The translations under genes and the position numbers were made by a program. DNA of 64,000 bases from contig NZ_JAGQBU010000005.1 of assembly GCF_024345795.1 (NCBI RefSeq), positions 62,001 through 126,000 of the forward strand, in the 5' to 3' direction. Positions 60,522 through 63,547 of the stretch are shown piece by piece (the stretch's first letter is position 1; every line of letters begins with the position of its first letter). The DNA comes from Synechococcus sp. J7-Johnson. GTDB lineage: Bacteria; Cyanobacteriota; Cyanobacteriia; PCC-6307; Cyanobiaceae. The notes under the pieces are model-generated. The model did not search any database. It had not been told where the DNA came from and saw only the letters and a list, made by a program, of their open reading frames with translations.

Positions 60522-60625
60522 CAGCTGTGCCGCTGCCCCCACGAGGGGCTGGCCCCGATGGCGCCGGCCGACAATCCAGACAACACCCGGGCCCGCTTGC
60601 GCCGGCCACTCCTGATCCACTCTCC

Positions 60626-61258
60626 ATGACCCTTCCGACCCTGCAACAACGGCTGCGCCGACTGACGCCCTCCCTGCCCAGACGCACCGGCCTGCTGATG
60701 GCTGCCGCGGGCATGGGCCTGGGGACCTTGATGGCCGGTGCTGGCGCCGGAATCGCTCCGGTGGCAAGCCTGGCCCAGGGCACCCCCGGGCTGCTGGAGT
60801 TCCGCTGGGATAACAACAAGGACTACCGGCGGCTCTATTTCTTCATGACCGACACCTCGCGGCTGAAGCGATCCGATTACTACCTGATCCTGAGGCCAAA
60901 GGATCGCAAGACGGCCATGCTCAAGCTCACCATTTCAGTTCCAGATAACTTCGATACAAAAATCGATCCCAAAGACATCAAGCTCTGCATGATGAAGGAA
61001 GGCGGGATGCTCTCCCGTACCCGCTGCAAGGAAACGATTCCTGCCGTTATTGAAGTGAATGCCAACGGCAAGTCGATCGAGATATTCCCGGAACGGCCTG
61101 TGCCCGTTGATGGCACCATCGGCGTGTTCATGTCGATCTTCAATCCATTCAACATCGGCATGTACCAGTTCAATGCTCTGGCCCAGGCACCTGGCGATGT
61201 GCCATTCGGCGGCTACCTGGGCAGCTGGCTGATCCAGATCGATCCGGGGATCGATTGA
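60626..61258 (+). CDS. DUF2808 family secreted/envelope protein
   Basis: 210 residues. A signal-like N-terminus (basic leader, hydrophobic stretch GLLMAAAGMGLGTLMAG) is followed by the DUF2808 domain: LLEFRWDNNKDYRRLYFFMT, SDYYLILRPKDRKTAMLKLT and a C-terminal FGGYLGSWLIQID. The family is nearly cyanobacteria-only and its function is not known. The middle is more A+T-rich than its neighbours. ATG 60626 is the start nearest the signal peptide. Confidence 0.84.
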   Translation: MTLPTLQQRLRRLTPSLPRRTGLLMAAAGMGLGTLMAGAGAGIAPVASLAQGTPGLLEFRWDNNKDYRRLYFFMTDTSRLKRSDYYLILRPKDRKTAMLKLTISVPDNFDTKIDPKDIKLCMMKEGGMLSRTRCKETIPAVIEVNANGKSIEIFPERPVPVDGTIGVFMSIFNPFNIGMYQFNALAQAPGDVPFGGYLGSWLIQIDPGID

Positions 61259-61311: not shown

Positions 61312-61449
61312 ATGACCAAGCGAACCCTGGAAGGAACGAGTCGCAAGCGCAAGCGGGTGTCGGGATTCCGCGTACGGATGCGTTCCCACACCGGCCGCCG
61401 CGTGATCCGCACCCGCCGTCGCCGCGGACGTGCTCGCCTGGCCGTCTGA
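61312..61449 (+). CDS. rpmH: 50S ribosomal protein L34
   Basis: 45 residues, very basic: [20 protein letters not shown] and [20 protein letters not shown]. This is the standard cyanobacterial L34 with the conserved [10 protein letters not shown] core. It lies 26 bp upstream of rnpA, the classical rpmH-rnpA pair. A TTGACA hexamer lies 33 bases upstream of its ATG but without a recognisable -10 partner. Confidence 0.96.
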
Positions 61450-61475: not shown

Positions 61476-61865
61476 ATGGCCCTGCCCAGGGATCTGCGCC
61501 TGCGGGGCGACAAAGCCTTTGATCACCTCTACCGCAAGGGCCGCCGTTTTCACGGCACGTACCTGGTGCTTCGCTCCGTCGTCGGCGAGCCCTCGCTCCT
61601 GCGTGCTCCCCTGGGCCAGGTGCCGCTACAGGGTTGCCGCTGCGCCGTCGTGGTGAGCACCAAAGTGAGCAAGCGTTCAGTACGGCGCAACCGGCTCAGG
61701 CGCCTGCTGCACGGCTGGCTGAACGAGCACTGCGGTCACTGGCCCGCCGACCCCAACGGCCTGTGGCTGCTGCTCAGCCTCAAGCCCTGCTGCGTTGAGG
61801 CCAGCCCCGAGGCCTTGCTGGGAGAATGTTCCGAGCTGTTCCGCAAGGCAGGCCTGAGTCGATGA
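61476..61865 (+). CDS. rnpA: ribonuclease P protein component
   Basis: 129 residues. LRLRGDKAFDHLYRKGRRFH and the RNR motif KRSVRRNRLRRLLHGWL, plus VVVSTKVSK, identify the RnpA protein that assists RNase P RNA in cutting tRNA leaders. A short insertion (about residues 37-55) between the first strands is usual in cyanobacteria. It overlaps the following PH-domain gene by four bases (ATGA). Confidence 0.95.
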   Translation: MALPRDLRLRGDKAFDHLYRKGRRFHGTYLVLRSVVGEPSLLRAPLGQVPLQGCRCAVVVSTKVSKRSVRRNRLRRLLHGWLNEHCGHWPADPNGLWLLLSLKPCCVEASPEALLGECSELFRKAGLSR

Positions 61866-62410: not shown

Positions 62411-63547
62411 GTGATCGGCTACATCTCCGACAACCTGCTGCTGCCCATCCTCGACTTTTTCTATGGGCTGGTGCCGAGTTACGGGCTGGCGATCATCGCC
62501 CTCACCGTGGTGATCCGGCTGGCCCTCTTCCCCCTGAGCGCAGGCTCGATCCGCAGTGCCCGGCGCATGCGCATCGCTCAGCCCGTGATGCAGAAGCGTC
62601 AGGCTGAGATCAAGAGCCGGTACGCCAGCAACCCCCAGAAACAACAGGAGGAACTGGGCAAGCTGATGAAGGAGTTCGGCAGCCCCCTGGCCGGCTGTCT
62701 GCCCCTGCTGGTGCAGATGCCGATCCTGTTCGCCCTTTTCGCCACCCTGCGCGGCTCACCCTTCGCCGATGTGCCCTACACCCTCAATCTGAAGGTGTTA
62801 CCGGCCGATCAGATCGCTGCGGTGGAGATCAAACCGTTCAACAGTGCCAGTCACTCGATCTTCATCACCGAAACCAGCCATGTGCCCGTCGTTGCCAGCC
62901 TTGAGGCCGGCACCAAGCTGGGCATCGGCGACTCAGCCCAGGTCAACCTGCACACCAAGGACGGGCAACCCTTCAGCAGCGTGCTCGAGGGCGTGGAGAA
63001 CGGCTCGAAGTACACACCGGCCTGGCGCGTCAGCAAAGGCGAAGGCGTGGTGCGGGTTAGCGAGTCAGGCTTGATCGAGGCGATCGCCCCTGGTGATGCC
63101 ACGGTGGAAGCAACGGTGCCCGGCCTGGCGGCTCGCAGTGGATTCCTGTTCATCAAGGCCCTTGGTCAGGTGGGCTTCTACACCGACGGGGCGATCAACT
63201 GGGACATCGCCATCCTGGTGGGGGCCTTCGGAGCCAGCCTGTTCATCTCCCAGATCCTCTCGGGGGCTGGGATGCCGCCGAATCCTCAGCAATCAACGGC
63301 CAACAAGATCACGCCGGTGATGATCACCGGAATGTTCCTGTTCTTCCCTCTGCCCGCGGGGGTGTTGCTCTACATGGTGGTTGCCAACATCTTCCAGGGC
63401 CTGCAGACCTTCCTGCTCAGCCGGGAGGCCCTGCCTGAGAACCTTCAGGACATCCTCGATCAACAGCTCGCCCAGCAGACGGTGGCGGTTGCCGCCAGCA
63501 CCGGTGGGTCTGAGCGGCTGCCATTTGAGCCCAAGGGCAAGAAGTGA
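62411..63547 (+). CDS. yidC: membrane protein insertase YidC with an Ig-like insertion
   Basis: 378 residues. The conserved core is present: TM1 ([20 protein letters not shown]), the cytoplasmic hairpin ([20 protein letters not shown] and [18 protein letters not shown]), then TM2 and TM3-5 after about residue 258. Between TM2 and TM3 a roughly 120-residue lumenal/periplasmic segment ends in a BIG2-like pattern ([20 protein letters not shown] followed by [14 protein letters not shown], about 206-239). E. coli P1 is elsewhere, before the core. GTG start. Function in thylakoid or plasma membrane insertion is well established for the family. Confidence 0.93.

Follow-up and report, generated by a model that had tools for sequence, protein, structure and literature searches.

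A predicted BIG2-like immunoglobulin domain in the P2 loop of cyanobacterial YidC, with a homolog in a sister class

In Escherichia coli, the YidC insertase carries a beta-rich soluble domain, P1, which faces the periplasm, and the fold of P1 in proteobacterial YidC is a supersandwich. The topology of YidC places loop P2 outside the cytoplasm as well. YidC participates in making photosystem subunits, and Synechocystis Slr1471 (P74155) presumably belongs to the cyanobacterial YidC equivalog model NF002734/PRK02654. BIG2 domains, a group of bacterial immunoglobulin (Ig)-like domains, are usually found in surface or phage proteins. A 2026 study (Hambucken, Baurain, and Cornet; preprint PMC13174344, journal version PMC13326532) gives the name "P1" to the domain found in cyanobacterial YidC, and the journal version proposes that the outward-facing domain of YidC helps to explain the move of photosystem II (PSII) to the thylakoids. 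Our own alignment agrees with the study on the missing residues, but puts the domain in P2; judged by its position in the aligned sequences, the domain named "P1" is P2. In the main text, the words "immunoglobulin" and "big" are absent from the preprint, and "Ig-like" and "Vampirovibrion" from the journal version. Our literature search, made partly by title and abstract and including few subscription papers, found no work which names the domain as Ig or BIG2 or places it in P2.

The window analyzed here is a stretch of 64,000 nucleotides from Synechococcus sp. J7-Johnson (contig NZ_JAGQBU010000005.1). Based on profile matches, its yidC gene (Table 1) is an ordinary cyanobacterial YidC, and it is single-copy, since a profile search of the whole genome yielded one 60KD_IMP match. 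Pfam 60KD_IMP matched the encoded protein with 123.2 bits (cut-off 35), and the core alignment covers TM1-TM5 of this putative insertase. NF002734/PRK02654 matched with 633.3 bits (curated cut-off 324), aligning residues 2-378 to model positions 5-379 of 384. This alignment extends across the P2 insert, which is therefore a normal constituent of cyanobacterial YidC, and the window protein belongs to the same family over its full length, with no difference in architecture. A further 18 NCBIfam YidC equivalog models matched the protein; the best stretch of each stops short of the Ig domain, at residues 111-128. NCBIfam BLB8/JUQZ matched below its cut-off (2.2e-5). The closest named relatives (98-99% identity) are the YidC proteins of Synechococcus sp. 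Cruz-7E5, WH 5701, and 1G10. Besides rpmH and rnpA, a gene encoding a bacterial PH domain lies upstream of yidC, and a YceD gene follows it. A DUF2808 gene (88.9 bits; window positions 60620-61258) adjoins the rpmH-rnpA-yidC cluster.

Table 1. Features of the yidC locus (positions in the window; residues refer to the YidC protein)
Feature	Positions	Strand	Basis or remark
rpmH	61312-61449		upstream of yidC; identified by eye
rnpA	61476-61865		upstream of yidC; identified by eye
yidC (cyanobacterial YidC/Oxa1/Alb3, PRK02654 type)	62411..63547	+	378 aa, GTG start, stop included
Core TM1, cytoplasmic hairpin, TM2 (residues 8-113)	62432..62749	+	profile/alignment, helix pattern of low-confidence full-length model; no P1 before TM1
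End of TM2 (conserved RGSPF) plus the insert's N-terminal linker/strand (residues 114-150)	62750..62860	+	AF2 model, alignments
BIG2-like Ig domain in loop P2 (residues 151-241)	62861..63133	+	Pfam Big_2, AF2 model, Foldseek and VIA rows (model residues 37-127)
Extra stretch of about 10 residues (inside residues 189-202; helical in part in the model)	62975..63016	+	AF2 model, alignment rows
Motif quoted in the sequence-only reading (residues 204-234), C-terminal half of the Ig domain	63020..63112	+	translation
Native conserved P2 segment with FLFI motif (residues 237-258)	63119..63184	+	alignments; Ig insert precedes FLFI
Core TM3-TM5 (residues 264-338)	63200..63424	+	profile, alignment

An insertion between TM2 and TM3 had been proposed from the sequence alone, and this was borne out. 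The 191 positions of TIGR03592 are stretched across residues 23-337 (315 aa), leaving about 124 residues surplus, and the stretch from the end of TM2 to the start of TM3 (residues 114-263) comprises 150 aa, compared with 32-49 aa in 11 short-loop relatives from the phylum; about 110 extra residues lie in loop P2. There they are predicted to form an Ig (BIG2-like) domain immediately before the conserved FLFIxxL segment. The proposal that its position is unlike that of P1 also held: E. coli P1 is found before core TM1, whereas the window domain is located in P2, after TM2. Just 23 residues precede Y24, the start of TM1, and no large soluble domain of the P1 type lies between an N-terminal TM and core TM1 of the window protein. 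In 98 of 101 YidC proteins of the phylum, the open frame before the start of TM1 comprises 21-58 residues, which leaves no P1 domain in these 98; the frames of the other three (L209, L211, and L232) merely open further upstream, and no sign of a P1 domain was seen in them. Since P2 is non-cytoplasmic in YidC topology, the Ig domain should be located on the exit side of the insertase and is probably exposed to the periplasm or lumen. The full-length AF2 model (39 sequences; alignment from 38 of 80 loci) was poor (pLDDT 55, pTM 0.35), and where the domain would sit with respect to the groove was derived from topology.

The identity of the domain was assessed with profiles and structure prediction, both of which the sequence-only reading had suggested along with a BIG2/Ig-like nature. 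In the window protein, Big_2 (PF02368) matches residues 205-236 with 18.2 bits (E 0.0025) when the whole protein is scanned and with 20.1-20.3 bits (E 0.00053-0.00064) for the segment alone, below the gathering cut-off of 22.8. When 51 diverse Cyanobacteriia segments were scanned singly, Big_2 was found at E<=0.1 in 25 (best 6.9e-9), and no other family appeared in more than three in the same Pfam scan. The motif on which the reading was built, within 62820-63180, makes up the C-terminal half of the Ig domain, and the N-terminal half lies just upstream inside the same interval. Searched against the PDB, the Cyanobacteriia profile matched a Hoc-like phage protein (E 2.1e-7), which we take to be Ig-like, and the Big_2-bearing chain 7quz (0.07); an influenza polymerase subunit (0.0067, ranked above 7quz) and DnaJ chains in the same search look like chance matches. 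The whole window protein matched YidC/OXA1L chains of the PDB through its core, with no convincing match to its insert, and the sister-class profile gave no PDB match at E<0.1.

The AF2 model of the domain (residues 115-262) was built from 27 rows: the window protein and 26 sequences kept from 67 tried among 80 loci. The other 41 comprised 40 without a match in a simple end-motif search and one in which both motifs were found; by elimination, this one contained an undetermined residue. Beta structure predominates in the model, which also has short helices (mean pLDDT 74.8); it reaches pLDDT 92-93 in its best ten-residue blocks and falls below 50 at model residues 1-4 and 126-148. The first two Foldseek rows against the PDB were Big_2-CBM56 chains (prob 0.99 and 0.97), with E-values of 0.15 and 0.28, which are not significant; no row reached E<=0.001. 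VIA rows with Z 5-6, a range able to reflect a common arrangement, lay mostly over model residues 37-127 and included 7quz/7r3t (Big_2, Z 5.4), the S-layer protein SbsB, LigA, phage head/tail proteins, and nuclear-pore chains, several of which presumably contain Ig domains. Non-Ig MATH/TRAF-type chains (SPOP, TRAF6, and SIAH) were aligned over a longer stretch with Z 3.2-3.9. The window domain resembles Big_2 in its sequence pattern, mostly beta model, and first Foldseek rows, and differs from it in its score under the gathering cut-off, in being a single loop insertion in a polytopic insertase instead of belonging to a surface or phage protein, and in an extra helical loop before the Trp strand. 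That the resemblance is spurious and the domain has some other beta fold would agree with the sub-threshold Big_2 score, the insignificant Foldseek E-values, the modest VIA Z together with the MATH/TRAF-type chains, and the presence of Big_2 in just one of 17 segments from the sister class described below, where three other families match two segments each. We consider this very unlikely, however, given the Big_2 matches in relatives, the PDB profile match to the Hoc-like protein, and the Big_2 chains leading the Foldseek rows. Although each score alone is indecisive, the combined profile and model evidence supports a BIG2-like Ig sandwich at residues 151-241 as the best reading.

The insert is not peculiar to the window genome: it was present in all 51 Cyanobacteriia sequences measured, and this class-wide occurrence with near-constant length excludes chance. 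The stretch corresponding to residues 114-263 comprises 148-162 aa in 43 Cyanobacteriia, including the window protein, and 136-143 aa in eight sequences of the deep-branching families f54, f61, and f62, all of which have the Ig domain. Most Cyanobacteriia rows were chosen for full-length match to the query, so a loss of the insert could have been missed among them. The set of 101 YidC proteins was taken from L111-L182 and L205-L235, without L183, L204, L208, L210, and L215 (dropped as fragments, as split matches, as a near copy of L211, or as superfluous); L082-L110 and L184-L203 lay outside this measurement. In a draw of 292 genomes of the phylum, each of the 139 genomes of the window's class had one continuous YidC match (hand count), and in a draw of 388 genomes of that class a match was found in 380, some split or partial. 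The sequence-only reading would have been refuted by the same segment in ordinary YidC of all bacteria; in the phylum sampled, all 11 proteins measured from seven other families (f30 and f32-f37) are short-looped, and the 18 other equivalog models stop before the Ig domain.

Within the domain, about 10 residues between the GQPF and Trp strands distinguish subsets of the class. Among 13 rows compared, they were present in the four Cyanobacteriia rows other than the deep-branching ones and absent or shorter in five deep-branching and four sister-class rows; a "helix loop" difference reported for the cyanobacterial domain (PMC13326532) agrees with the extra residues in the window protein. Psb27 was matched in none of nine genomes of f54, f61, and f62, compared with six of six other genomes, and Gloeobacterales are reported to lack both Psb27 and thylakoids (PMC13174344). 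Because of their deep branching in the class and the lack of a Psb27 match, f54 and f62 were taken as Gloeobacterales, and the three families probably are, or include, this group.

The Ig region is under purifying selection, which is looser than that on the core. Mean pairwise identity among 43 Cyanobacteriia was 0.44 for residues 151-236; it was higher in TM1-TM2 (0.75), the FLFI segment (0.71), and TM3-TM5 (0.67). In pairwise comparisons of the window gene with 16 nearer relatives, dN/dS was 0.04-0.35 for residues 131-236 and 0.00-0.06 for TM1-TM2, ratios which are rough because many dS values were near or above 0.7. Such a loose constraint on the Ig body would be anticipated for a docking arm but not for a catalytic site.

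P2 inserts were also found in a second class of the phylum, presumably Vampirovibrionia, from which 117 genomes were drawn (families f31, f38, and f40-f46; YidC match in 109; the short-loop families are absent from this draw). Two kinds of insert occur there. Type A (f38, f40, f42, f43, and f44) has 141-169 aa between landmarks in 17 of 18 sequences and 284 in the eighteenth. Compared with the Cyanobacteriia insert by hhalign, the type-A profile, built from 17 of the 18 sequences with L228 (two copies) omitted, gave a probability of 99.5 (E 4e-23) over 134 columns with 24% identity; on this profile evidence, the type-A insert is a homolog of the cyanobacterial Ig domain, located at the same site. 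None of the 18 type-A genomes (5 + 13) matched Photo_RC (PF00124), the PSII reaction-center family, whereas it was present in all nine tested genomes of the window's class (4 + 5). The P2 Ig-like domain is duplicated in tandem in the YidC of L228 (G304:C6:18721-20742), whose frame comprises 530 aa; compared with each other, the copies share 31.5% identity across 130 columns (E 3e-19), and the profile recognizes two domains, with 75 and 71 bits. Long YidC frames (518-555 aa) were also noticed in five other f40 genomes (G325, G349, G354, G359, and G362), and one f38 match (L188/L149; G240:C12:52942-54036) contains an in-frame TAA, perhaps the end of a shorter protein read through.

Type B comprises f31, f41, f45, f46, and f39, the last placed with f31 in the tree, and all 21 sequences (L152-L157, L173-L175, L177-L179, L181, L182, and L229-L235) have 143-168 aa between landmarks. 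The insert itself, of about 125-150 aa, follows the FLFI motif. It is similar in size to the window insert and located in the same loop; the window insert, however, precedes FLFI, and there is no profile similarity beyond that motif. The possibility that type B is a diverged copy of type A was rejected, since hhalign aligned the two over 14 columns of the FLFI stretch alone (probability 4.7) and the side of insertion differs. One of the 21 type-B inserts matched Big_4 (0.0004), which makes an Ig-like fold possible, and type B may therefore represent another Ig-like domain.

Residue counts around FLFIxxL place the two inserts on opposite sides of one segment. In short-loop proteins, 17-22 residues precede it and 13-30 follow it (8 of 11 rows with the pattern). 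The preceding stretch is 121-152 residues long in Cyanobacteriia and type A (267 in L228), and the following one 13-15 (28 in L132). In type B, 16-17 residues precede the segment and 124-149 follow it (19 of 21). The pattern was not recognized in 2 of the 43 Cyanobacteriia rows, 2 of the 21 type-B rows, and 3 of the 11 short-loop rows. With an unrelated insert on the other side of FLFI in part of the sister class, P2 must have been invaded at least twice, and two unrelated insertions are thus found in one loop of a universally important machine. A tree of the core, built without the insert from 65 of 101 rows, recovered a short-loop group (100/99), a group of Cyanobacteriia that includes f54, f61, and f62 (100/100), and a type-B group (95/93). 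Type-A sequences were split into two clades next to type B, joined by a poorly supported fork (85/68), and came out as a single clade in 10% of bootstrap trees; f54, f61, and f62 branched deep, the order of f62, f61, and f54 being weakly supported (93/71, 90/65). With the tree rooted on the short-loop group, the simplest history would be a single acquisition of the Ig domain by the common ancestor of the two classes, with type B later replacing it once; a transfer of the domain between classes is also possible.

Taken as a whole, the results are best explained by an ancient insertion of an Ig domain into P2 which serves as a general arm, a reading to which we assign a probability of roughly 0.55. 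Its architectural part is highly likely, while the chances of the functional part, general docking or chaperoning, are about even. The Ig domain would extend from the outer face of the insertase into the periplasm or thylakoid lumen and could act as a docking/chaperone arm on the exit side, where it would position partner factors (SecDF or assembly factors of the periplasm or lumen), soluble loops of nascent clients, or both. Such a role would be comparable to that proposed for proteobacterial YidC P1, accomplished via a different loop and a different domain. The loose constraint, the fixed length and site, the occurrence in genomes lacking PSII reaction-center genes, and the size-matched replacement would suit a general arm more readily than either a module for photosystems or a catalytic element. 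Against this reading stands, by analogy, the report that deletion of 90% of E. coli P1 left viability unimpaired (PMC13174344).

The sequence-only reading had suggested a lumenal docking or chaperone module for photosystem assembly. The periplasmic or lumenal side agrees with YidC topology, whereas specificity for photosystems was weakened, and a photosystem-specific module, possibly tied to the origin of thylakoids, now appears improbable. Synechocystis YidC is reported to co-purify with ChlG, HliD, and Ycf39, as part of that assembly complex (PMC6175206), and with Ycf48 (PMC11449106), and the extra residues of Cyanobacteriia other than the deep families, likewise described in PMC13326532, would suit such a module. 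However, a homologous domain occupies the same site in all 18 sampled sister-class genomes without Photo_RC, it is also present in the deep, Gloeobacterales-like families, and only the extra loop, not the whole domain, could track thylakoids. Given the related domain in non-photosynthetic relatives, the Ig domain probably has a general role in the assembly of membrane proteins and an origin unconnected with photosynthesis, although a later photosystem role within cyanobacteria is possible. The Ig-type P2 identity together with the homolog in non-photosynthetic relatives would therefore remove the domain as such from the account of how PSII moved to thylakoids, and the candidate left for that account is mainly the short extra loop. 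A passive spacer or structural lid, that is, a tolerated insertion which stabilizes or shields P2 without a specific partner, would explain why the Ig body diverges far faster than the core, why a second, unrelated insert occupies P2 in another clade, and why one sister-class genome has a tandem duplicate. We regard it as rather doubtful, since no loss was seen in the 51 measured Cyanobacteriia, even though they were chosen for full-length matches, dN/dS is well under 1, and all 39 measured type-A and type-B sequences have one insert or the other, with at least 141 aa between landmarks, which suggests that something is needed in P2.

A more far-reaching possibility, though less likely than not, is that the P2 Ig domain evolved independently to stand in for proteobacterial P1, having been gained in the common ancestor of Cyanobacteriia and their non-photosynthetic sister class, and that P2 is a recurrent site of acquisition. 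Part of the sister class might then have swapped the Ig domain for an unrelated domain on the other side of FLFI with the same job, and Cyanobacteriia with thylakoids might later have adapted the older domain to lumenal assembly by means of the helical loop.

Two observations concern individual records. One 38-kb contig of Synechococcus sp. CS-1328 (NZ_JAHLYT010000063.1) contains two YidC loci in opposite orientation (L042 and L043), each 84% identical to the window YidC, representing a duplication or an assembly artifact. A YidC 83% identical to that of the window was found in a record labeled "MAG: Bifidobacterium breve" (L064; CALPNT020000056.1), which is probably mislabeled or contaminated.
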